Assembly: GCF_900176135.1 (NCBI RefSeq) | Contig: NZ_FWWW01000046.1 | Coordinates: 1 to 64,000, forward strand | DNA length: 64,000 nucleotides | Source: Hymenobacter roseosalivarius DSM 11622 | GTDB taxonomy: Bacteria > Bacteroidota > Bacteroidia > Cytophagales > Hymenobacteraceae | Reading direction: 5' to 3' | Part shown: piece after piece, positions 37,979 to 50,153 of the stretch | Layout of the letters: each line of letters starts with the position of its first letter | Numbering within the stretch: position 1 is the stretch's first letter | Program-made: the position numbers and the translations under genes | The notes under the pieces: generated by a model | The model's input: only the letters and a program-made list of their open reading frames with translations | The model's database searches: none | What the model was told of the DNA's origin: nothing

Positions 37979-40492
37979 ATGATTGCTTCTCTTAATAAAT
38001 TTATCAGGCTGTTAGCCCTCGTAGTGTCGCTGGGAATAGTTGGCATCGGACAGTTGCGGGCCCAATCGCCTGCTCCAGGACCTGCTGAGCCTCAGCGCTA
38101 TGAGTTGGGGGGCATTACCATCAGTGGGTCACGCTATCTGGATGCAAATACACTGATTGGAATAACAGGTCTTCGAGTAGGCGACCCAGTAACTATTCCA
38201 GGGGAGGATATTGGTAAAGCTATTCGCCGACTGTGGGAACAGGGCATCCTTGGTGATGTGAGTGTATCTATCACCCGCATAGACGGGCAGCGTGTTTTCC
38301 TCGATTTCTTCCTGAGTGAGCGTCCACGATTATCTAAGTTTGACTTTGTCGGCATTAGCAAGAGCCAGGGTGATGAGCTGCGCGATAAGATCAAGCTTAT
38401 CCGGGGCAAGGTGGTGACGGATGCTTTACTGAATAACACCCGCACGCAAGTGCGCAAATTCTATACGAATAAGAGCTTCTTAGATGCTAAAGTGAATATT
38501 ACGCAAGTACCGGATTCGAGCTTATCGAATAGCGTAGTACTAAAAATCAAAGTAGATAAGGGTGAAAAAATCCGCATTCGTGATATTGCTTTTGAAGGTA
38601 ATGAGGCATTTTCTGATGGAAAGCTTCAAAAGAAGCTAAAGAAAACAAAGGCGAAAAAATCGTACAAGCTACTGACGGCGGGTAAGTTTCAACGGGCTGA
38701 ATACGAAGAGGACAAGCTTAAGCTGTTGGAGTTTTATAACGCTGAGGGTTACCGGGATGCTGTTATCGTTTCGGATACTCTAATTCGTCAGGAGGATGGG
38801 CTAGCCCTGCGGATTACGGTAGATGAAGGGCCAAAGTATTACTTCCGCAACATCACTTGGAACGGCAACTATCTGTATGATGATAAGACGCTGGCCTCGG
38901 TACTAGGAATCAAGAAAGGAAGCGTATACAATAAGGAAGAGCTTGAAAAGCGCATCAGCTACAATCCTACGGGGCAAGATGTGCAGTCGCTCTACATGAA
39001 TGATGGCTACTTGTTCTTTAACATCGACGCGGTAGAAACGAAGATTGAAGGCGATTCTATTGACTTGGAGATGCGCATCAGCGAAGGCGTACAGGCTCGT
39101 ATCAAGGAAATAAATATTGCGGGCAATACCAAAACCAGCGACCATGTGTTGCGACGCGAATTACGTACACTACCAGGGGATAAATTTAATAGGGAGTTGC
39201 TGATTCGCTCCCAGCGCGAAATCTCTACGCTAGGCTATTTCGACCCTGAAAAGGTAGGAATGGTGCCGGTACCTAATCAGGCCGAAGGCACAGTAGATAT
39301 TAATTACACGGTAGTTGAGAAGCCTTCTGACCAGATCACGCTTTCGGGCGGCTGGGGTGGCTATGCAGGCTTTATTGGTACGGTAGGCCTGGTTTTTAAC
39401 AATTTTTCCCTCCGTAAAGCTGGTGACTTCCGCAACTGGAAGCCGGTGCCAGCCGGCGACGGCCAGCGTTTGGCCCTGAACGTGCAAGCTAATGGCCTAC
39501 AATATCAAGCTTATTCCTTCTCTTTTACAGAGCCTTGGTTAGGTGGTCGTAAGCGTAATTCGCTGACCTTCAGCCTCAATAAGAGCATTCAGCGCCTAGG
39601 ACAGGCTCTGGACGCTAGCACTGACCGTTTCATTAAGGTAAATAGCGCCTCTATTGGTTTAGGACGGCAGCTGCGTTTCCCTGACGACTACTTTACATTG
39701 AGCAACTCACTATCAGTTAGCCAATATAAGCTAAACCAGTATCCGGCTTTCGGTACGGAGTTCTTCCGGAATGGTACTGGCAACGCGAATAACATCACGC
39801 TGAATACGACGCTGTCGCGCAATAGCATCGACAATCCAACTTACACTCGTCGTGGTTCGTCGCTGTCGCTTAGCCTAAATTTGACGCCTCCTTATTCGGT
39901 GTTCAATGGCGCCCATCCCTCCGTAAATGAGTGGGTAGAGTTCCATAAGTGGATGTTTGATGCTTCGTGGTTTACGCCAATCGTGGGAAAGCTAGTGCTC
40001 AACTCACGGGCCCACTTTGGCTACATTGGCTCGTATGGCTCCGACCGGCAGATCGGGCCTTTCGAGCGCTTTAAGCTAGGTGGTTCTGGCTTGGGCTATG
40101 GTGGCTCATCCAACTTTCTGATTGGTACGGAATATATTGGTCTGCGGGGCTATGGTGACCCCGGCGATGCTAACTCCATTCCTACGGCCCGGCAGGCATC
40201 CAGTGGGGGCGTAGCTTACAATAAATACGTAATGGAGCTGCGTTATCCGGTATCGCTCAACCCTGCGGCTACCGTGTATGTGTTGAGCTTCGCGGAAGCA
40301 GGCAACGCTTTTGATCAGTATACCAACTACAATCCCTATAAGCTGTATCGCTCGGTAGGCGTGGGTGCCCGCATATTCATGTCGGCATTTGGGTTACTCG
40401 GTTTCGACTACGGCTTGCCACTTGATACAGTGCCTGGCCAGACGAAGAAGGAAGGTATTTTCCACTTTATTATCGGCCAGCAGATTCGCTAA
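37979..40492 (+). CDS. bamA: Outer-membrane protein assembly factor BamA
   Basis: An 837-residue Omp85 protein. After a signal peptide, five POTRA domains are recognised by their repeated beta-alpha pattern (YELGGITISGSRYLDANTLIG, KIRIRDIAFEGNEAFSDGKL, YYFRNITWNGNYLYDDKTL, ARIKEINIAGNTKTSDHVLRREL), followed by a barrel (LSGGWGGYAGFIGTVGLVFNNFSL, SFTEPWLGGRKRNSLTFS) with GLRGYGDPGD, a variant of the VRGY lid-lock motif, ending in a barrel strand (FHFIIGQQIR). It folds and inserts outer-membrane barrels. The two Skp chaperones follow directly. Confidence 0.95.
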   Translation: MIASLNKFIRLLALVVSLGIVGIGQLRAQSPAPGPAEPQRYELGGITISGSRYLDANTLIGITGLRVGDPVTIPGEDIGKAIRRLWEQGILGDVSVSITRIDGQRVFLDFFLSERPRLSKFDFVGISKSQGDELRDKIKLIRGKVVTDALLNNTRTQVRKFYTNKSFLDAKVNITQVPDSSLSNSVVLKIKVDKGEKIRIRDIAFEGNEAFSDGKLQKKLKKTKAKKSYKLLTAGKFQRAEYEEDKLKLLEFYNAEGYRDAVIVSDTLIRQEDGLALRITVDEGPKYYFRNITWNGNYLYDDKTLASVLGIKKGSVYNKEELEKRISYNPTGQDVQSLYMNDGYLFFNIDAVETKIEGDSIDLEMRISEGVQARIKEINIAGNTKTSDHVLRRELRTLPGDKFNRELLIRSQREISTLGYFDPEKVGMVPVPNQAEGTVDINYTVVEKPSDQITLSGGWGGYAGFIGTVGLVFNNFSLRKAGDFRNWKPVPAGDGQRLALNVQANGLQYQAYSFSFTEPWLGGRKRNSLTFSLNKSIQRLGQALDASTDRFIKVNSASIGLGRQLRFPDDYFTLSNSLSVSQYKLNQYPAFGTEFFRNGTGNANNITLNTTLSRNSIDNPTYTRRGSSLSLSLNLTPPYSVFNGAHPSVNEWVEFHKWMFDASWFTPIVGKLVLNSRAHFGYIGSYGSDRQIGPFERFKLGGSGLGYGGSSNFLIGTEYIGLRGYGDPGDANSIPTARQASSGGVAYNKYVMELRYPVSLNPAATVYVLSFAEAGNAFDQYTNYNPYKLYRSVGVGARIFMSAFGLLGFDYGLPLDTVPGQTKKEGIFHFIIGQQIR

Positions 40493-40530
40493 TTCATTAG
40501 TCAATTTGTTAGGGTCTTAAAGTCGTTGCT

Positions 40531-41214
40531 ATGAAAAAGCTGCTTTCTTCTTTTATCGTTGTGCTAACTGGACTTCTAGCAACTCCTGCGGCTCAAGCGC
40601 AAAAATTTGGGTATGTAGACTCCGAATTTGTGATGGGAAAGTTGCCCGCTTATGCCGCTGCCCAGCAGGAGTTAAATACACTGTCTGGCAACTGGCAGAA
40701 GGATATTGAGAATCAAAAGAAAGAACTTGATAAGCTGTATCGCACTTATCAAGCGGAAGAGGTGTTGCTAACAGAAGCTGCAAAGAAGAAGCGGCAGGAT
40801 GAGATCCTGAAAAAGGAACAGGAGATAAAAGCGTATCAAAATAAGATTTTTGGTTTTGAAGGCCAGCTATTTAAAAAGCGGCAGGAACTAACCAAACCCG
40901 TTCAAGATCAGGTATTTGAGGCCATCGAGCGGGTCGCTAAAAAGAAACAGCTGGCGATTGTGTTTGATAAGGCTGGGGACTTAACCATGCTGTACACCAA
41001 TCCGGTCCATGACTATACTGAATTTGTGCTGGAGGAAATGGGTTTAGCATCTGAGGAGAAAAACCAACCTGGTACAAAAGGCTCAGTTCAGACTGTTGAA
41101 ACGCCTGCTACGCCTACCGATGGGGTAAATGCTGATGTTACTGATGTGCCTCCCGCCACTCGTCCGGTCCCTCGCACCCGACAGCCGGCGCAGCCGGTAA
41201 AACGAAAAAACTAA
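40531..41214 (+). CDS. skp: OmpH/Skp-family periplasmic chaperone, copy 1
   Basis: A 227-residue exported protein with a signal peptide (cut near QAQK) and the Skp pattern: KFGYVDSEFVMGKLPAYAAAQQEL, then long coiled-coil arms rich in Lys, Glu and Gln, and VFEAIERVAKKKQLAIVFDKAGDLTMLYTNP. The tail from about residue 180 is Thr/Pro-rich. Skp holds unfolded barrel proteins on the way to BamA. It is 38 bases after bamA. Confidence 0.88.
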   Translation: MKKLLSSFIVVLTGLLATPAAQAQKFGYVDSEFVMGKLPAYAAAQQELNTLSGNWQKDIENQKKELDKLYRTYQAEEVLLTEAAKKKRQDEILKKEQEIKAYQNKIFGFEGQLFKKRQELTKPVQDQVFEAIERVAKKKQLAIVFDKAGDLTMLYTNPVHDYTEFVLEEMGLASEEKNQPGTKGSVQTVETPATPTDGVNADVTDVPPATRPVPRTRQPAQPVKRKN

Positions 41215-41255
41215 CTTTGACTTTCTAACTTGCAACTTCCCTTTTAATGACCACC

Positions 41256-41882
41256 ATGAACAAAATCCGCCTTGCTTTGGCCGCGGCCGCTCTTACCTTC
41301 ACCACCACTACGGCTACCCTAGCGCAGGCCCCGCTAAAGATCGGATACACTAGCGTGGACTATGTGCTCAGCCAGATGCCCGAAAGCAAGCAGATCGAGT
41401 CAGATCTGAAAGCATACAGCTCGCAGTTGGAAGCCCAGTTAAAAAGTAAGATTGCTGATTATCAAACAAAGGCTGAGGCTTATCAGAAGGGCGCTAGTGC
41501 CATGACTGAGGTTGTTCGCGCCGATAAAGAAAAAGAATTGACCGGTCTTCAGGGCTCCATTCAGGAGTTTCAGCGCAGTGCCGACAACTCACTTCAGCAG
41601 AAGCAGCAAACCTTGCTAAAGCCAGCATTGGATAAGCTGCAAAAGACGATTGATGCCGTAGCCACTGAAAACGGTTATACCTACGTACTGAACTCGGATG
41701 GTGCTAGCCCAGTGCTGTTGCACGGTCCTAAGGAAGGTGACATCTCCGATATGATTCTTAAGAAGATGGGCGTTACGCCAGGTGCTGCTCAGGCTCCCGC
41801 TGCTGCTCCTGCTAAGACTACCCCTGCTGCACCTACTGCTGCACCCGCTGGCAACACAGCCAAAAAAGGTAAGAAGAAATAA
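41256..41882 (+). CDS. skp: OmpH/Skp-family periplasmic chaperone, copy 2
   Basis: A 208-residue exported chaperone paralogous to copy 1 (KIGYTSVDYVLSQMPESKQIESDLKAY, coiled-coil centre, KTIDAVATENGYTYVLNSDGASPVLLHG), with an Ala/Pro/Thr-rich tail and a basic end. The ATG at 41256 (MNKIRLALAAAAL) gives a standard signal peptide; an ATG 9 bases upstream is possible. A terminator follows 18 bases after the stop, closing this operon. Confidence 0.85.
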   Translation: MNKIRLALAAAALTFTTTTATLAQAPLKIGYTSVDYVLSQMPESKQIESDLKAYSSQLEAQLKSKIADYQTKAEAYQKGASAMTEVVRADKEKELTGLQGSIQEFQRSADNSLQQKQQTLLKPALDKLQKTIDAVATENGYTYVLNSDGASPVLLHGPKEGDISDMILKKMGVTPGAAQAPAAAPAKTTPAAPTAAPAGNTAKKGKKK

Positions 41883-43058: not shown

Positions 43059-43096
43059 AAAAAAAGCCTCCCAGCATACGCTGGGAGGCTTTTTTT
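43059..43096. terminator. Bidirectional terminator
   Basis: A7-GCCTCCCAGC pairs with GCTGGGAGGC-T7 between convergent rluA-type and TPR genes. Confidence 0.95.
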
Positions 43097-43114: not shown

Positions 43115-44713
43115 TTACTTCTTACGCTTCGTAATTTCACTGATGGCTGTAGCGGCCTGCGTATCATTAGGGTCAAGGGCGATTACTGCCTGCCAGTAAG
43201 GAAGCGAAGTAGACTTCTCGCCTTTCTGGTAGTAGTAGTAACCCAGATACTTGTTAGCCTCAACCAAACCTTCTTTGTACTTAGTAGGGTCGTTCGCTTT
43301 GGCTACCTCAATGAACTTCTCATAGTGAGGCTTGGCGGTACCTTGCTTGGAGTCTGGGTCTAGACCAAAGTTAGCGCGAGCACGCATCAGGTATACCGGC
43401 ACGTAGGTTGGGCGAGCCGTAGCTACAGCGCTATAGAGTTTATCAGCTTCAGCGAACTGCTTGTTCTGCTCGTAGGCACGGGCTAGATAGATTTGGTCAG
43501 CTAGCTCAGGGGTAGCGCCTTGAGCGGCAATTTTAGCCTGATACGTGGCAATAGCCTTCGCATAGTCTTTCTTGGCCAAGTAAGCCTGAGCTAAGTCGTT
43601 CTGCAGATCGCCAGCCTTATCGGGGTTAGACTGAATAGCCTTCTCGATAATGGCAACGCCTTCATCCGTACGGCCAGCGCCCATCAGCATTTTGCCATAG
43701 TACACGTTATCCTCGGGGATAATCTTGTTGGCAGGAGCCATCTTCATGTACTTCTCCATCGCTGGCAATGCCAGGTCGTTTTGCTTGTTCTCATAGAGAG
43801 AGTAAGCCAGCAGACGGTTCATTGTCAGGTTGTTCGGATCTGTCTTCAGTACGTTTTGTATCTCCGTCAGCGCCTCTGGGTATTTGCCCGTCAGGTACAG
43901 GAAGGAAGCGTATTTGGCGTTCGTGCTGGGAGTTTTCTCCGCTATCGACGTGTACTTCTGAAAAGTAGAAAGGGCTAAGTCGTATTGCTTAGCGAAGTAA
44001 TACATTTCAGCCAGGTCGCGGTAGGCAGGAGCGAAGTTCGCATCAAGGCTGATGGCTTTCTCGAAAGAAGTACGAGCTTCATTGAAGTTGCGCGAACGCA
44101 CATACAGCTGACCTTTACGGTAATTAGACATCACCGAATTCGGATCAACGATCAACGCACGATCATAGCTTCCCATTGACTCGCCGCCACCATTCTCAGA
44201 CTTCTGATAGATGTCACCGCGGGCAATCATAAGGCCCAAATCGTCCTTGCCTTTGTTAGCAGCTTGTGCAGCGTTTACATAGGCTATAGCCTTGCTGGTA
44301 TCTTTAACATCAGACTCAGCGTACGCCTGGGCAATCATTTTCAGCGTGTTGAACGCCTCCCTTTTCTTGGTGGCTTTTACTGCTTTATCAAACTGATTAG
44401 CCGCCTCGGCCTCGTTGCCCTTCGCCAGTGCAGCACGACCAGCGGCTACCAACGACATGGGAGAATCGGAATTAGGGGTGATTTTGCTGAAATAGAAAGC
44501 GGCCGAATCGGGCATTTCCCGCATCTGATACAGGCGGCCCAACTCATACATGGCCTCGGGCGACTGACCTTGACGGAGCAGCGCACCACGGGCTTCATTA
44601 TAGCGCTCCAGTTCGAGTGACTTTTGGGCGGTCTGCGCACTCTGAGCGAAAGCGGCAGAGCCGGAAACCGACAAGGCAACGAGGAACGAAAGTTTCCAGG
44701 GCTTGAAGTTCAT
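43115..44713 (-). CDS. Exported TPR protein
   Basis: A 532-residue exported protein with a signal peptide (MNFKPWKLSFLVALSVSGSA, cut after AFAQS) and about ten TPR units from residue 35 to the end (ARGALLRQGQSPEAMYELGRLYQ, SLDANFAPAYRDLAEMYYFAKQYDLALSTF, LKTDPNNLTMNRLLAYSLYENKQNDLALPAMEK). TPR proteins act as scaffolds. It is the last gene of the exbB-tonB cluster, 44 bases after the PstS-like gene, so it probably takes part in the same envelope machinery. The start ATG at 44713 is used rather than a TTG two codons before. Confidence 0.85.
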   Translation of the reverse strand: MNFKPWKLSFLVALSVSGSAAFAQSAQTAQKSLELERYNEARGALLRQGQSPEAMYELGRLYQMREMPDSAAFYFSKITPNSDSPMSLVAAGRAALAKGNEAEAANQFDKAVKATKKREAFNTLKMIAQAYAESDVKDTSKAIAYVNAAQAANKGKDDLGLMIARGDIYQKSENGGGESMGSYDRALIVDPNSVMSNYRKGQLYVRSRNFNEARTSFEKAISLDANFAPAYRDLAEMYYFAKQYDLALSTFQKYTSIAEKTPSTNAKYASFLYLTGKYPEALTEIQNVLKTDPNNLTMNRLLAYSLYENKQNDLALPAMEKYMKMAPANKIIPEDNVYYGKMLMGAGRTDEGVAIIEKAIQSNPDKAGDLQNDLAQAYLAKKDYAKAIATYQAKIAAQGATPELADQIYLARAYEQNKQFAEADKLYSAVATARPTYVPVYLMRARANFGLDPDSKQGTAKPHYEKFIEVAKANDPTKYKEGLVEANKYLGYYYYQKGEKSTSLPYWQAVIALDPNDTQAATAISEITKRKK

Positions 44714-44757
44714 GAGCAAAAGGGTTAGTGAAGAAGAGTGAGTAAAAGAGTTAAAAT

Positions 44758-45717
44758 CTACTTGGTTGAGGTCGTCACGATGCGGGTTTGGCCAATGGCC
44801 GGCATCAATCCCGACTTCAGAATGATCAACTGGCCTTTGGTGCCAGCCACAAAAGAGGCAAATCCGCTACCTAAGCCCGTACGAGCCTCCCGGTTGATAA
44901 CGAATAGCTCGCGGCGCAGAGGATACGTTTTAAGAGCCAAATAAGCCTGATACGGCTGCACATAGTCGTCAGGTGTTTTAGGGTTGTCGAGGGCGCTTAT
45001 GCCCACTACCCGCACCTTGCGCAGAAAGCTCTGTACCGACGAGTCGTCACGGTCACTTATCCAGTTGGCTCCCACCACGCCGATTGCGTCGGGATGCGTA
45101 GCAACGTAATCAAGGAGTTCAGGGTTCGATTTTGCCGCGAACACGCGCTTGGTTAAAGGCGTTCCCTGCGTTACCGAATCCTGAACATAACGGGTGGTGC
45201 TGGAGCGGTTCGCATCAAACACTACATTAATATCTCCCAAGCCTTTTTTGCCGCTTACCTGCGCCCACTTCTCAGTTTGACCGGTGAAAATAGTCCGAAG
45301 CTGAGCCATTGTTAGCAGCGAGTCAGGGTTGCTGGGATGCACGATGATGGCCAAGCCATCAGTAGCAATCTTAGTGACGCGGGGGGTAATAGTTTGCTGC
45401 TTAAAGGTTGCTTTTTCAGCATCAGTCAACTGCCGCGATACAATCACCGCCCGAACCTTATCGGCAAGCAAGTCCTGCATGACGGCTTCTTCCGGCTTAT
45501 ATACTGCCGTGACGGTAGCCGACTGGTAGAGTTTCTGAAAAGTGTCGACCTGTGACCGCACGATAGGCTCAAACGTTTCGTCCACACTGATATTGAGGCG
45601 GCCGCTCGTAGGCGTGTCTCTGTCAGCCGGATTTCCTTGGTTGCAACCTGTAGTGAGTAAGCCGGAGAGCAGAAGTAAAGCGCCGGCTGCTCGCCAGTTA
45701 GCGCGCAGAACTGTCAT
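44758..45717 (-). CDS. PstS-like substrate-binding lipoprotein
   Basis: A 319-residue lipoprotein: the signal sequence ends in the lipobox LLTTGC, followed by a type II periplasmic binding fold related to PstS (LNISVDETFEPIVRSQVDTFQ, TDGLAIIVHPSNPDSLLTMAQLRTIFTGQTEKWAQ, INVVFDANRSSTTRYVQDSV, DAIGVVGANWISD). PstS binds phosphate for the PstCAB pump, but no pstC, pstA or pstB is here; its neighbours are TonB/ExbB/ExbD genes. The ATG at 45717 begins the lipoprotein signal. Its start overlaps the preceding small gene by 20 bases. The ligand has not been shown and could be other than phosphate. Confidence 0.82.
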   Translation of the reverse strand: MTVLRANWRAAGALLLLSGLLTTGCNQGNPADRDTPTSGRLNISVDETFEPIVRSQVDTFQKLYQSATVTAVYKPEEAVMQDLLADKVRAVIVSRQLTDAEKATFKQQTITPRVTKIATDGLAIIVHPSNPDSLLTMAQLRTIFTGQTEKWAQVSGKKGLGDINVVFDANRSSTTRYVQDSVTQGTPLTKRVFAAKSNPELLDYVATHPDAIGVVGANWISDRDDSSVQSFLRKVRVVGISALDNPKTPDDYVQPYQAYLALKTYPLRRELFVINREARTGLGSGFASFVAGTKGQLIILKSGLMPAIGQTRIVTTSTK

Positions 45718-45955
45718 TGGATTTCTTGAAATGTTGCTGGTAGGTGCGGACAAATCTAATAATTCCGTAGAGGACAAAAATGCCCCCCAGTGTACGTTGT
45801 ACTGTTGGCGACAACGAAAAAGCCTCAGGTGAGGCAAACCAAAGGAAAATGCCCAAGCTGATGTAAGCGAAGGCCATGAACAGCGAAAAGTAGCGCATCA
45901 CATTAGTAGCGCCGCGCTTTCCTAAGCGTTCATCCGTGGTTTGGCGATTCAACAT
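45698..45955 (-). CDS. Small two-span membrane protein
   Basis: An 85-residue protein with two hydrophobic helices (YFSLFMAFAYISLGIFLWF and VQRTLGGIFVLYGIIRFVRTY) and charged ends. Overlapping the PstS-like gene start by 20 bases suggests translational coupling. I do not recognise the family; in context it may be a membrane partner of the PstS-like lipoprotein or of the TonB motor. The ATG used is the first available after tonB. Confidence 0.6.
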   Translation of the reverse strand: MLNRQTTDERLGKRGATNVMRYFSLFMAFAYISLGIFLWFASPEAFSLSPTVQRTLGGIFVLYGIIRFVRTYQQHFKKSNDSSAR

Positions 45956-46073
45956 AAGCGTGATCTAACGGGGAAAAGTATTCAGTTAGTGCCTTAACGT
46001 ATAAATGTAGGTAGATTGTTCGCCTCACTGCCCAAAATATATATCATCTCGGATATTTTGAGGTCAAGTGAAT

Positions 46074-46117
46074 ACAGAAAATCCAGGAAGCGCAATTTTG
46101 CCCCCTGGATTTTCTGT
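46074..46117 (-). terminator. Hairpin between tonB copy 2 and the small membrane gene
   Basis: ACAGAAAATCCAGG and CCTGGATTTTCTGT form a perfect 14-bp stem around a 16-base loop. There is no strong U-run on the minus strand, so it may be a weak terminator or an intercistronic hairpin. Confidence 0.55.
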
Positions 46118-46172
46118 CTGGTAAGAAAGCTGCATTTCTTGCTGATTTCAGCCTGTTTGCTGCTGCAATGGT

Positions 46173-47009
46173 TTACTGGTACTGGAAGGTAATAGGCATT
46201 GTGTAGCGCACCGGAACTGCATGGTCGTTTTGGCGGCCAGGCGACCAGGGGGGCATTTTGCTTATTACGCGTATTGCCTCTTCGTCCGTACCATAACCTA
46301 GCCCTTTAATGACGGCTACATCAGAGATAGAGCCATCGGCATTTACCGTGAAAGAAATATAGACACGCCCAGAAACCGCGGCACTTGCCGCTTGGCTCGG
46401 GAAGCGCAGGTTGCGCTGCATATAGCGGCGCAGCGCCTCCGGGCCACCCACAAAGTCAGGCATTACTTCTGCCGTTAGGAAGGGCTTCGTAATTGCACCC
46501 GCGCCCGTCTTGCCCGAATCAGTACCTGCGCTTGAAATGTCGGTGACGACGCCGGTATTATTCCTTGGAATGGCGACTGGACCAACAACCGCCCCAGGCG
46601 TGGTTGTCTCACCGATAACCTTTTCCATTGAGATGGGCTTTGTGACCAGCTCATCTGGTACCACTCGCGAAATCACATCAGCTGGATTTGCCTTTGTCAC
46701 TACTGCTCGTGTTGGGGGTGGTGCCACTGGAGGAGCTACTGCCGGGGGTGTGGGGGGCAAAATTGTAATAAGCTCAAGATCAATAATGCCTCGATCTACG
46801 GGTAGAACCGCATCGGCGACAGTTGGGGAGAGGCGTTGCACCAACATGGGAATGCTAAACAGCACCAGGCATAGCGCCAGTGTGGCGGCCAAAGCGGTAG
46901 CCAAGTGCCGCTTATAAAGGCGGCGCAGCAGATATGCGCCATACGCTTGATTGCGGCCATCAAAGACGATGTCGTCGAGGGTAGCGGTGAGCAGATTGAG
47001 GGTTTTCAT
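46173..47009 (-). CDS. tonB: Energy transducer TonB, copy 2
   Basis: A 278-residue inner-membrane protein. The cytoplasmic start LDDIVFDGRNQAYGAYLLRRLYKRHL is the Bacteroidota TonB motif; a membrane helix follows (residues 37-57), then a Pro-rich periplasmic linker and a C-terminal TonB domain (MPDFVGGPEALRRYMQRNLRFP, SGRVYISFTVNADGSISDVAVIKGLG). It passes proton-motive energy from ExbBD to outer-membrane receptors. A terminator separates it from tonB copy 1, so it may have its own promoter in the AT-rich 47010-47160. Confidence 0.9.
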   Translation of the reverse strand: MKTLNLLTATLDDIVFDGRNQAYGAYLLRRLYKRHLATALAATLALCLVLFSIPMLVQRLSPTVADAVLPVDRGIIDLELITILPPTPPAVAPPVAPPPTRAVVTKANPADVISRVVPDELVTKPISMEKVIGETTTPGAVVGPVAIPRNNTGVVTDISSAGTDSGKTGAGAITKPFLTAEVMPDFVGGPEALRRYMQRNLRFPSQAASAAVSGRVYISFTVNADGSISDVAVIKGLGYGTDEEAIRVISKMPPWSPGRQNDHAVPVRYTMPITFQYQ

Positions 47010-47164
47010 GGGTTGTATAGGCTAAAAGGTGAAAGAAGGCCGCAACGCGCATTACCCAAGCCATTCACTATCCTCTTCCCATTACTTCCGCTCTGGCTTT
47101 CGAACTCTCAACGCACTATATATATTAACTAGTATGCATGCCGACAAAAATTATTTATATACAT

Positions 47165-47202
47165 AAAAACCCCAAGCGACACAGCGGCCGCTTGGGGTTT
47201 TT
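47165..47202 (-). terminator. Terminator after tonB copy 1
   Basis: AAAAACCCCAAGCG pairs with CGCTTGGGGTTTTT, with U-runs possible on either strand, 20 bases past the stop of tonB copy 1. Confidence 0.88.
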
Positions 47203-47222
47203 AGCTTCGAAAAGCAAGAATC

Positions 47223-48050
47223 TTACTTGATAGCGAAGGTTACCGGAACAGTGAATGATACGCTTACTGCACGGCCATTTTGCTTACCAGGAGCAAACCT
47301 AGGTAGGGTTTTTACGGCACGAACGGTTTCTTCGTCGCAGCCGGCTCCGATACCTTTGGTGATTTTCACATCCGTTACCTCACCCTGGGGGTTTACGGTA
47401 AAGTTTACGAAAACCTTGCCCTCCACTTGGTTGCGTAGTGCCAATGCTGGGTATTTGATGGCTTTTTGAATAGCGCCAACAATAGCATCATTACCACCCG
47501 GGAATTGCGGCATCTGCTCTACGTAGGTATACACTTTCGTGTCTACTACTTCAGCTACTGCAGCATTGCCGTCACCTTCCAAGCCGCTTAAGTCCACCTC
47601 GTTGGTGTTACCTTTTACCGTCACGGTAGCAACTACCTTGTCCTTCAGCTCATCCTGATCCGGAATTTCTTCCTCCTTTACTACCTCTTCATCTTTTTTG
47701 ATGACGGGAGGCGTAAACTTAATCGTGGAGAGCTTTGGTGGCGGCGGTGGCGGTGCCTCCGGTGGTGGGGGCGGTGGCGGTGGCGGTACCGCTTTATCAA
47801 GCGGCGGTGCTTCCATCAACTCATTCACCTTCAAATTCTTAGCATCTTCCTCTGCTCTGCTACCCTCAAACATGCGGGCAATGATAGGGAAGCTTACCAG
47901 AACCGCGAAGATGGCGATGCCGATGAGCAGAGCACGGGTTAAGTGCTTGCTGTACAAGCGACGGAGTACGAAGGCTCCGTAGGCCTTGTTGCGACCTTCA
48001 AAGACGATATCGTCGAAGGAAGCACGGGCCAGTTGTGTGTTGTCCATCAT
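47223..48050 (-). CDS. tonB: Energy transducer TonB, copy 1
   Basis: A 275-residue TonB with the same N-terminal motif (FDDIVFEGRNKAYGAFVLRRLY), a membrane helix, and a periplasmic linker with runs of nine and six prolines (residues about 89-106), then acidic and charged segments, ending in the TonB C-terminal domain (MPQFPGGNDAIVGAIQKAIKYPALALRNQVEG, TVNPQGEVTDVKITKGIGAGCDEETV). The long proline stretch can span the periplasm. Its start overlaps the exbD stop by 4 bases. Confidence 0.93.
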   Translation of the reverse strand: MMDNTQLARASFDDIVFEGRNKAYGAFVLRRLYSKHLTRALLIGIAIFAVLVSFPIIARMFEGSRAEEDAKNLKVNELMEAPPLDKAVPPPPPPPPPEAPPPPPPKLSTIKFTPPVIKKDEEVVKEEEIPDQDELKDKVVATVTVKGNTNEVDLSGLEGDGNAAVAEVVDTKVYTYVEQMPQFPGGNDAIVGAIQKAIKYPALALRNQVEGKVFVNFTVNPQGEVTDVKITKGIGAGCDEETVRAVKTLPRFAPGKQNGRAVSVSFTVPVTFAIK

Positions 48051-48571
48051 AGCCCTGACTTGCTTATAAGTACAGTGTCAGCTGGTGCAATATCCACCAG
48101 CGCGTATTTCTTCTGGTTAGTGATGTTCATCTCATCCAGAATGTCAACCATGTTCTTGTAGACTGATTTCCGTGCTGGCTTAATCAGTACTACAGTATTC
48201 GGATTGGCACGCATACGATCGAGCAACACCTTACGAATACCAGTTGCCGCATAGTTAGTAACCTTCAACTCAGGCTTTACGTCGTCGGCCAACAGGCCTT
48301 CGTAGTAATACACTTTGTTGGTTTCGCCCAAAATTACCGTCATAGCATTCGACGATTTAATCTCGGATGGTGGGTCACCGTCTTTAGGCTTTACCGGCAT
48401 CGTCACCTGCATTACGTTCGGCTTATTGAACGTAGTTGTGAGCATGAAGAAGGTAAGAAGAAGGAAGGCCAAGTCAACCATGGGAGTCATGTCGATTTTG
48501 GTCGACATTTTCTTGGCCCGTTTCTTCCCGCCTTTTCCTCCGGAGTCGGCTTTTTGTTGTATTTCTGACAT
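48047..48571 (-). CDS. exbD: ExbD-family biopolymer transporter, copy 2
   Basis: A 174-residue protein with a cytoplasmic Lys-rich start, one membrane helix containing the proton-carrying aspartate (Asp33 in DMTPMVDLAFLLLTFF), and a periplasmic domain (VLIKPARKSVYKNMVDILDEMNI). With ExbB it forms the proton-driven motor for TonB. It lies 14 bases after the other exbD. Confidence 0.93.
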   Translation of the reverse strand: MSEIQQKADSGGKGGKKRAKKMSTKIDMTPMVDLAFLLLTFFMLTTTFNKPNVMQVTMPVKPKDGDPPSEIKSSNAMTVILGETNKVYYYEGLLADDVKPELKVTNYAATGIRKVLLDRMRANPNTVVLIKPARKSVYKNMVDILDEMNITNQKKYALVDIAPADTVLISKSGL

Positions 48572-48585
48572 TTCGCTACGGGAGG

Positions 48586-49215
48586 TTAGTTTCCGGCTAC
48601 TGTTTTGGGTTTCATCTCCAAATCAGTAATCAGGTTGAAGCGATTAATATCCTTATCCTGCATGTACTTGATAAGTTTGCGAACCGTCGGTACATCCGCG
48701 TTGTTATCACCCTTAATGGCGATGTAAACCGGCTTTCTGAAAAGCTGTTGGTTAGCAGCTCTTCCCTGTATCACCCAATCAATGATTTGATTGTTCGTGG
48801 AGTCAGTTGGGATACCTGGCTGCTGAACTTTCTTTACTTCCTCCTTATCACGGTCGAGAAGAGAGCCAAGCTGCTGAATCGGTACACCAAAACTAGTCAT
48901 TTGGCCGAAGCGCTTCTTTTGCTGAGGGGTAAAAGAGACACCATATTTGGCACCTACTTTTTCCAGCATCAGCACTTTGGCGGGCTCACTGTCCAGCGCG
49001 AAATAGGTCTTGCCATCCTTATCAACCGAAATAGTAATCAGGTTGGTGTCGGGCAGCTTAAGGTCCGAGGTAGAGGATGGTGTGTCCACCATAACGACTT
49101 CCTCAGGAGCAAACTTGGTGGTGAGCATAAAGAATGTCACCAGCAGGAATGCCAAGTCCACCATCGGGGTCATATCCAACGAGGGGGACGTTCTATGGGG
49201 CTTAACTTTAGGCAT
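48586..49215 (-). CDS. exbD: ExbD-family biopolymer transporter, copy 1
   Basis: A 209-residue ExbD with Asp20 in LDMTPMVDLAFLLVTFFM and a longer periplasmic domain than the second copy (VYIAIKGDNNADVPTVRKLIKYMQDKDINRFNLITDLE). The middle has an extra segment with GVSFTPQQKKRFGQMTSFG. Two different ExbD proteins suggest heteromeric or alternate motors, a known trait of Bacteroidota. Confidence 0.92.
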   Translation of the reverse strand: MPKVKPHRTSPSLDMTPMVDLAFLLVTFFMLTTKFAPEEVVMVDTPSSTSDLKLPDTNLITISVDKDGKTYFALDSEPAKVLMLEKVGAKYGVSFTPQQKKRFGQMTSFGVPIQQLGSLLDRDKEEVKKVQQPGIPTDSTNNQIIDWVIQGRAANQQLFRKPVYIAIKGDNNADVPTVRKLIKYMQDKDINRFNLITDLEMKPKTVAGN

Positions 49216-49280
49216 TTCTGGCTTAGTTAGTTTGAATTCAGAAACGTAGGAAGCCTAGGCTTTAGTGCGTTAACTGCAAC

Positions 49281-50153
49281 TTATGCCGTGTAAGTTTCCT
49301 TTTCGCCGTGCTGAGCGGCGAACGTCTGAATAATGCTGAAGCCAGCTTCGTCGATGCTGTACGTCAGCTCGTCGATTTTGCTTGTAAAGAAGTTGTAGGA
49401 GATGATGGCCAGCGCTGAGCCAAGAATACCGAGGGCCGTGTTAATCAAGGCTTCCGAGATACCGTTAGCGAGTGCTGTAGCATCGGGGTTACCAGCTTGT
49501 GCCAGAGCCGAGAAGGCCTTGATCATACCCGCTACCGTACCCAACAGACCTACCAGCGTAGCGATAGAGGCGATTGTTGAGATGATAACCAGGTTTTTCT
49601 CCAGCATAGGCAATTCCAAGGCAGTAGACTCTTCAATCTCTTTCTGGATTGACAGGATCTTCTGGTCTTTGTCCATGCCGCGCTCACGCGACATTTCCTG
49701 GTATTTCAGCAGGCCAGCCTTTACCACGTTAGCTACCGAGCCTTTCTGCTGATCGCAAACCGCCAGAGCGCCGGTGATATCGTTCACGTTCAGCTTCTGA
49801 CGGATCGATCGAACGAAGCTTTCGATACTTTTCGTGCCGCGGGCTTTGCCGATGGTCAGATAGCGCTCGATGGAGAAAGTGATAACAAGCAGGAACAACG
49901 TGAGCAGAATGGGCACGATAAAGCCCCCTTTGTACACGATGCCGAGATAGTTACCCTCAATCGGGTTGTTCTCATTATTACCGCCCTGGAAGTTGGCACC
50001 ATTGCCGAATACGAACAGGTAAATAATAATCGAGACTACAAGTGCCAACGGAATTACGATGGCGGCGAACGCTGATCCGCCTTTCGCTTCTTCCGTAGGA
50101 GCAGCGGGAGCGGCAGGCCGCACGTTCTTGTTCATGGCATTCTTCTGTTCCAT
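49281..50153 (-). CDS. exbB: MotA/TolQ/ExbB proton-channel protein
   Basis: A 290-residue ExbB with an N-terminal extra membrane segment (AFAAIVIPLALVVSIIIYLFVF), a second span, a cytoplasmic loop (FVRSIRQKLNVNDITGALAVC, GLLKYQEMSRERGMDKDQKILSIQKEIEE) and two further helices with the conserved TLVGLLGTVAGMIKAFSAL and GISEALINTALGILGSALAII. It is the first gene of the cluster, behind a perfect promoter and a leader of about 190 bases. Confidence 0.94.
   Translation of the reverse strand: MEQKNAMNKNVRPAAPAAPTEEAKGGSAFAAIVIPLALVVSIIIYLFVFGNGANFQGGNNENNPIEGNYLGIVYKGGFIVPILLTLFLLVITFSIERYLTIGKARGTKSIESFVRSIRQKLNVNDITGALAVCDQQKGSVANVVKAGLLKYQEMSRERGMDKDQKILSIQKEIEESTALELPMLEKNLVIISTIASIATLVGLLGTVAGMIKAFSALAQAGNPDATALANGISEALINTALGILGSALAIISYNFFTSKIDELTYSIDEAGFSIIQTFAAQHGEKETYTA

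Follow-up and report, generated by a model that had tools for sequence, protein, structure and literature searches.

Members of the Bacteroidota live by TonB-dependent uptake, and accounts of their Ton motor usually stop at ExbB, ExbD and TonB. Riemerella anatipestifer requires its TonB2 system to take up hemin and iron, and the TonB2 complex without its downstream neighbour is inactive in E. coli, where the simple exbB-exbD-tonB1 system is active (PMC4446302). In the TonB2 system of Vibrio vulnificus, a tetratricopeptide repeat (TPR) protein, TtpD2, is essential for siderophore uptake (PMC6957404). An exbD mutant of Flavobacterium psychrophilum is cited, in two further papers, for attenuation and poor iron-free growth (PMC9331221, PMC9618737); for the row BT2664-68 of B. 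thetaiotaomicron (substrate-binding protein, ExbD, ExbB), another gives changes of -3.1 to -2.7, values whose direction was not checked (PMC10434189). Here we describe a locus in a 64,000-nucleotide stretch of DNA from Hymenobacter roseosalivarius DSM 11622 (the window; positions 1-64,000 of contig NZ_FWWW01000046.1, GCF_900176135.1), in which the genes of a Ton motor stand beside genes for a small membrane protein, a lipoprotein of the PstS fold and a TPR protein. This arrangement is conserved, the PstS-like protein co-occurs almost completely with this ExbB within the class to which Hymenobacter belongs, and its phosphate site has been lost. We favour, with a probability of roughly 0.6, the reading that the PstS-fold lipoprotein now serves the Ton motor as an adaptor or regulator and does so in concert with a TPR scaffold and, in most loci, a membrane protein of two helices.

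In an even draw of 198 genomes from the class, with thresholds of E <= 1e-15 for the PstS-like protein and E <= 1e-50 for this ExbB, the former was found in 120 genomes and the latter in 122. Both occur in 119 genomes and neither in 75; three have the ExbB only, and the sole genome with PstS only has a contig that starts inside exbD. The Fisher value for this co-occurrence (p ~1e-49) is inflated by shared ancestry, yet the retention of both genes in unlinked positions is independent of that value. Specifically, the PstS-like and ExbB genes lie no more than 8 kb apart in 77 of the 119 genomes and farther apart in 42, being distant on one contig in five of these and on other contigs in 37, some of them through contig breaks. 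In 16 unlinked loci that we examined, a TPR gene stands beside pstS in 13 and the small-protein gene does so in 11. Because the genes are retained together even when their loci are separate, we argue that they function jointly. An earlier draw across the phylum agrees within the class, where 27 genomes carry each protein and the 27 are identical.

The initial annotation supposed that this gene order is common in Bacteroidota, and it is borne out by two sets of relatives. When named genomes were scanned with the PstS-like alignment, 575 matches were confirmed and the best 80 were taken as loci, with no selection by neighbourhood; they come from Hymenobacter, Rufibacter, Pontibacter, Solitalea, Bacteroides, Phocaeicola, Dysgonomonas and environmental assemblies, including two labelled Ignavibacteria. 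A TPR gene is present in 79 of these loci, tonB in 74, exbD in 71, and exbB and the small-protein gene in 70 each, with some of the missing genes explained by contig ends. Adding 40 more stretches brought the set to 124 PstS-type open reading frames (ORFs), of which 112 were taken as cluster members; the other 12 had neither a small-protein or TonB gene within 2.5 kb nor a TPR gene together with a PstS score above 200. The set of 112 is thus chosen by neighbourhood, since ORFs without such neighbours were dropped, and the 80-locus and 198-genome counts are not. Within the 112, the order exbB-exbD-exbD-tonB-small-pstS-TPR occurs 45 times and the version with two tonB genes, as in the window, 29 times; a cassette without motor genes accounts for 11 and an order without the small-protein gene (exbB-exbD-exbD-tonB-pstS-TPR) for eight. 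The cassette follows the motor genes in most loci and precedes exbB in seven (one cut short), and the small-protein gene is present in 102. The second tonB is also found in Pontibacter and in many relatives of Hymenobacter.

The predicted structure of the PstS-like protein (pLDDT 87.9) superposes on solved phosphate-binding proteins, with Z 28.0 and an rmsd of 2.0 Å over 241 residues for 4gd5_A and Z 28.4 and 2.3 Å over 261 for 4omb_A. To compare the sites, the 112 cluster proteins were aligned with 25 control PstS ORFs from 16 stretches selected for a nearby PstC match. All 25 of these pump-linked controls have the Arg of the RE..SGT motif, and 100/112 of the cluster proteins have Asp at that place; in the window protein the Arg is replaced by D168, which alignment with 4gd5 puts at the same position. 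In the first loop the controls mostly have G-S-(T/D/P), and in the window protein D46 and E47 replace Ser/Thr; D46 is shared by 108 of the 112 and E47 by 102, with Asp in four more. In E. coli PstS these loops contact phosphate. At least two acids occupy the three positions in 108/112 cluster proteins and in 0/25 pump-linked PstS. Arg95 and Asp120 are retained in cluster proteins and controls alike. Because these two residues are kept and the rebuilt positions are highly conserved, the old ligand-site residues being among the most conserved of the protein, the cleft probably still binds something, though not phosphate.

The genomic setting also speaks against a phosphate pump as the partner of this protein. 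As the initial annotation noted, pump genes are absent from the block; moreover, no PstC match over the family cut-off was found in the window genome (best E 1.7e-7; PstA and PstB were not searched for), where a Pit-type transporter is present. Across the 27 class genomes with the PstS-like protein, PstC exceeds the cut-off in eight and not in 19, the window genome included. Examination of the PF12849 matches in this genome gave no second clear PBP_like_2 binding protein; the two other, weaker matches were rejected as a second PstS, since they lie in open frames of ~301 residues with starts like those of LysR-type regulators. Separately, three of the stretches examined hold paired, adjacent PstS-type proteins without the canonical RE.NSGT and without the cluster motif, and these may represent a further unexplained family of binding proteins.

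All eight genes lie on the minus strand at the places first assigned to them (Table 1). ExbB, both ExbD and both TonB proteins score well above the Pfam cut-offs of their own families, and both ExbD proteins show MVDLAF, which contains the membrane Asp. The overlaps of 4 bases between exbD and tonB1 (48047-48050) and of 20 bases between the small-protein and PstS-like genes (45698-45717) were correctly noted. The start of the PstS-like gene was corrected to the ATG at 45717, the longer ORF to 45837 having a merely mechanical first start, and that of the TPR gene to the ATG at 44713. Alignment suggests two membrane helices in the small protein, with a conserved YG..R in the second. The N-terminus of the TPR protein resembles a signal peptide by eye, and its model has a pLDDT of 92. 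The last hairpin in Table 1 separates the TPR gene from an RluD-like gene that faces it, and beyond, at 37979-41882, a bamA-like gene and two genes of the skp/OmpH type are also oriented toward the cluster.

Table 1. Genes and hairpins of the Ton locus, in window positions.
Feature	Positions	Strand	Description
exbB	49281..50153	-	290 aa, MotA/TolQ/ExbB proton channel; PF01618 106.4 bits, cut-off 22.9
exbD, first copy	48586..49215	-	209 aa; PF02472 68 bits
exbD, second copy	48047..48571	-	174 aa; PF02472 71 bits
tonB1	47223..48050	-	275 aa; PF03544 76 bits
Terminator-like hairpin 3′ of tonB1	47152..47212	-	-28.6 kcal/mol, z -6.3
tonB2 (second tonB)	46173..47009	-	278 aa; PF03544 58 bits
Terminator-like hairpin 3′ of tonB2	46070..46135	-	-29.9 kcal/mol, z -5.8
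Small membrane protein	45698..45955	-	85 aa; no Pfam match
PstS-like lipoprotein	44758..45717	-	319 aa, lipobox Cys25; PF12849 140 bits
TPR protein	43115..44713	-	532 aa, periplasmic, signal peptide, ~14 repeats; Pfam TPR
Terminator hairpin 3′ of TPR gene	43059..43096	-	symmetrical, z -8.0

The genes had been read as one block, a description weakened by strong hairpins after tonB1 and tonB2 that probably split the region. On its two sides tonB2 is set off by gaps of 213 and 217 bases, each containing one of these terminator-like hairpins. Because such hairpins follow both tonB genes, three transcripts are probable in the window genome, namely exbB-exbD-exbD-tonB, tonB2, and small protein-PstS-like-TPR. 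These two hairpins came from separate folding and were not reported by the sigma-70 promoter scan, which gave 3 promoter-like sites against 7.0 in shuffles and is uninformative for this phylum. A search by eye for a Bacteroidota-type promoter 5′ of the small gene gave nothing convincing. The tonB and pstS genes of Bacteroides-type loci lie almost end to end (the median gap is 3 bases in the nine loci with pstS directly after tonB), and therefore a single transcript may be common in other genomes.

The window genome has 47 TonB-receptor Plug matches and two MotA/ExbB proteins over the cut-off, and because so many plug domains are served by just two such proteins, the cluster is probably a main motor of the cell. 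On contig 32 of the same genome there is a second, simple motor, which by eye consists of an ExbB-family gene and, after it, a single gene each of the ExbD-like and TonB-like kinds; accessory genes are absent from the stretch seen.

We propose that the region encodes a main Ton motor of the cell, comprising ExbB, two ExbD and TonB, plus an accessory module of PstS-fold lipoprotein, periplasmic TPR protein and small membrane protein. The PstS-like protein would be a former binding protein of an ABC transporter that has ceased to supply a pump; its lipid would tether it to a membrane, and its role would be to adapt or regulate the motor. As a scaffold, the TPR protein would keep it attached to ExbD/TonB or else to the receptors of the outer membrane, and in loci that have the two-helix protein, this would anchor the module at the inner membrane. 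By binding a ligand, which its acidity suggests is not phosphate, or a protein, the old cleft could set whether or where TonB engages receptors. In such an arrangement the three accessory proteins would bind the motor and regulate or position it. The initial annotation offered a sensor or adaptor for the motor as one possible role, and this remains the best reading; both gene order and co-occurrence place the PstS fold with a TonB motor and not with an ABC pump. Its other suggestion, TonB-linked uptake of a phosphorus source, is unsupported because three conserved acidic residues replace the phosphate site. A bolder version, which we consider doubtful, would make the main Ton motor of the class a compound machine, with the rebuilt binding protein as its ligand-gated clutch and the acidic cleft sensing a periplasmic cation, amine or peptide, and not phosphate, and licensing the TonB pull via the TPR scaffold.

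Several observations weigh against the adaptor or regulator reading. Contact of the accessory proteins with the motor is inferred, and in the window genome the motor and accessory genes are probably on separate transcripts. The Bacteroides-type loci among the 80 fetched with PstS yielded no small protein; the ten without it belong to Bacteroides, Phocaeicola and Dysgonomonas. That the TonB2 complex from Riemerella was inactive in E. coli fits a need for the accessory module, but other causes, such as receptor specificity, could also explain it. The three class genomes with ExbB only belong to one family and have exbB-exbD-exbD-tonB; their motor loci have no TPR gene and no PstS-like neighbour except for a 20-bit trace in one, and they may represent a natural loss or replacement of the accessory genes. 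In the phylum draw, finally, 112 genomes with this ExbB have a PstS-like gene within 8 kb in 40 cases, within 40 kb in five and neither in 67, although the 67 include some class genomes, a small number, that carry the protein on another contig. Among the 67, the 14 loci from outside the class that we examined comprise five with a very divergent PstS-like protein and TPR, eight with none and one cut by a contig end. The five are very divergent copies of the whole cluster in families outside the class (PstS-like scores of 95-126 bits; missed by a BLAST-level search), which suggests that the cluster is of old origin. The initial annotation would have given up the link had the PstS-like and TPR genes shown separate promoters and no co-occurrence with exbB-tonB; separate transcripts are likely here, but co-occurrence is almost complete in the class, and overall the link stands.

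Of the alternatives, the one that survives best is that the TPR and PstS-like proteins are assembly or stability factors, helping the motor or its receptors to assemble with no regulation of force. TPR proteins are common assembly factors, the 47 plug domains have to be served with two MotA/ExbB proteins, and the bamA-like and two skp-like genes adjoin the cluster. A purely structural part, however, would not need the old ligand-site residues that are among the most conserved, and we regard this explanation as unlikely. We think it somewhat less likely still that the locus is a Tol-Pal counterpart, which would bind outer membrane and wall together in place of, or alongside, driving uptake. As in Tol-Pal (TolQ-TolR-TolA, Pal/TolB, CpoB), motor, transducer, lipoprotein and TPR protein share one cluster, and the window ExbB scores higher with the tolQ model (97.7 bits) than with the exbB model (59.7 bits), both far below the cut-offs. 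A search of the window genome for TolB_N gave 0 matches, and according to a 2025 paper Bacteroidetes have no tol-pal loci that can be identified (PMC12204202); a TolB_N match in a Bacteroides control genome indicates, however, that its absence is not general. The cluster differs from Tol-Pal in having TonB-type transducers, both with TonB_C domains, in having no TolB, and in a lipoprotein that is a PstS fold, with no OmpA-like wall-binding domain in any of the eight proteins; in addition, the Riemerella counterpart is required for hemin and iron uptake.

Binding of phosphate or a phosphorus compound for uptake or sensing, via TonB or a distant pump, would suit the clear PstS fold and PBP_like_2 match, but we reject it as highly improbable given the exchange of the anion-site Arg and of Ser/Thr for acids, the absence of PstC over the cut-off in most class genomes with the protein, and the Pit-type transporter. 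That the cassette merely adjoins the motor genes by chance, as probably separate transcripts here and separate loci in some genomes might suggest, can be dismissed given only four discordant genomes in 198 and a cassette that may precede or follow the motor genes.

These results suggest an unstudied accessory part of a widespread outer-membrane uptake machine. In the literature searched, with most subscription journals outside its scope, nothing described the PstS-like, TPR or small protein as belonging to a Ton system. For Riemerella the motor role of a Ton counterpart is already published; how the accessory proteins would act is our proposal. Should the motor have two or three more obligate parts, it might not work when reconstituted from the known ones, much as the TonB2 complex of Riemerella failed in E. 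coli, and models derived from E. coli would be incomplete for the Bacteroidota motor.

Comparison with known systems places the locus as follows. The window protein has the fold of the PstS of PstSCAB; it differs in its anion-site residues and in coming from a genome without PstC over the cut-off, and with the PstS family model TIGR02136 it scores 91.4 bits, below the cut-off of 206.6. A relative of the window TPR protein has been solved in part: PDB 3u4t, the C-terminal part of Q11TI6 from Cytophaga hutchinsonii, gives a continuous match of 267 bits to the window TPR family (profile positions 267-524) and a TM-score of 0.91 over the target, and it is an entry of structure only, whose title states no function. 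The Riemerella TonB2 system, exbB2-exbD21-exbD22-tonB2, is judged a counterpart from its described gene order; the passages available mention neither a TPR nor a small protein and leave the function of the downstream gene outside that study (PMC4446302). In the Vibrio TonB2 system, none of the six listed components is named as a PstS fold (PMC6957404). This system, with TtpB2, TtpC2 and TtpD2, is nevertheless the nearest precedent, a Ton motor with extra parts that include a TPR protein, and here too a TPR protein is encoded with the motor, 79 of the best 80 loci fetched with the PstS-like protein having a TPR gene.

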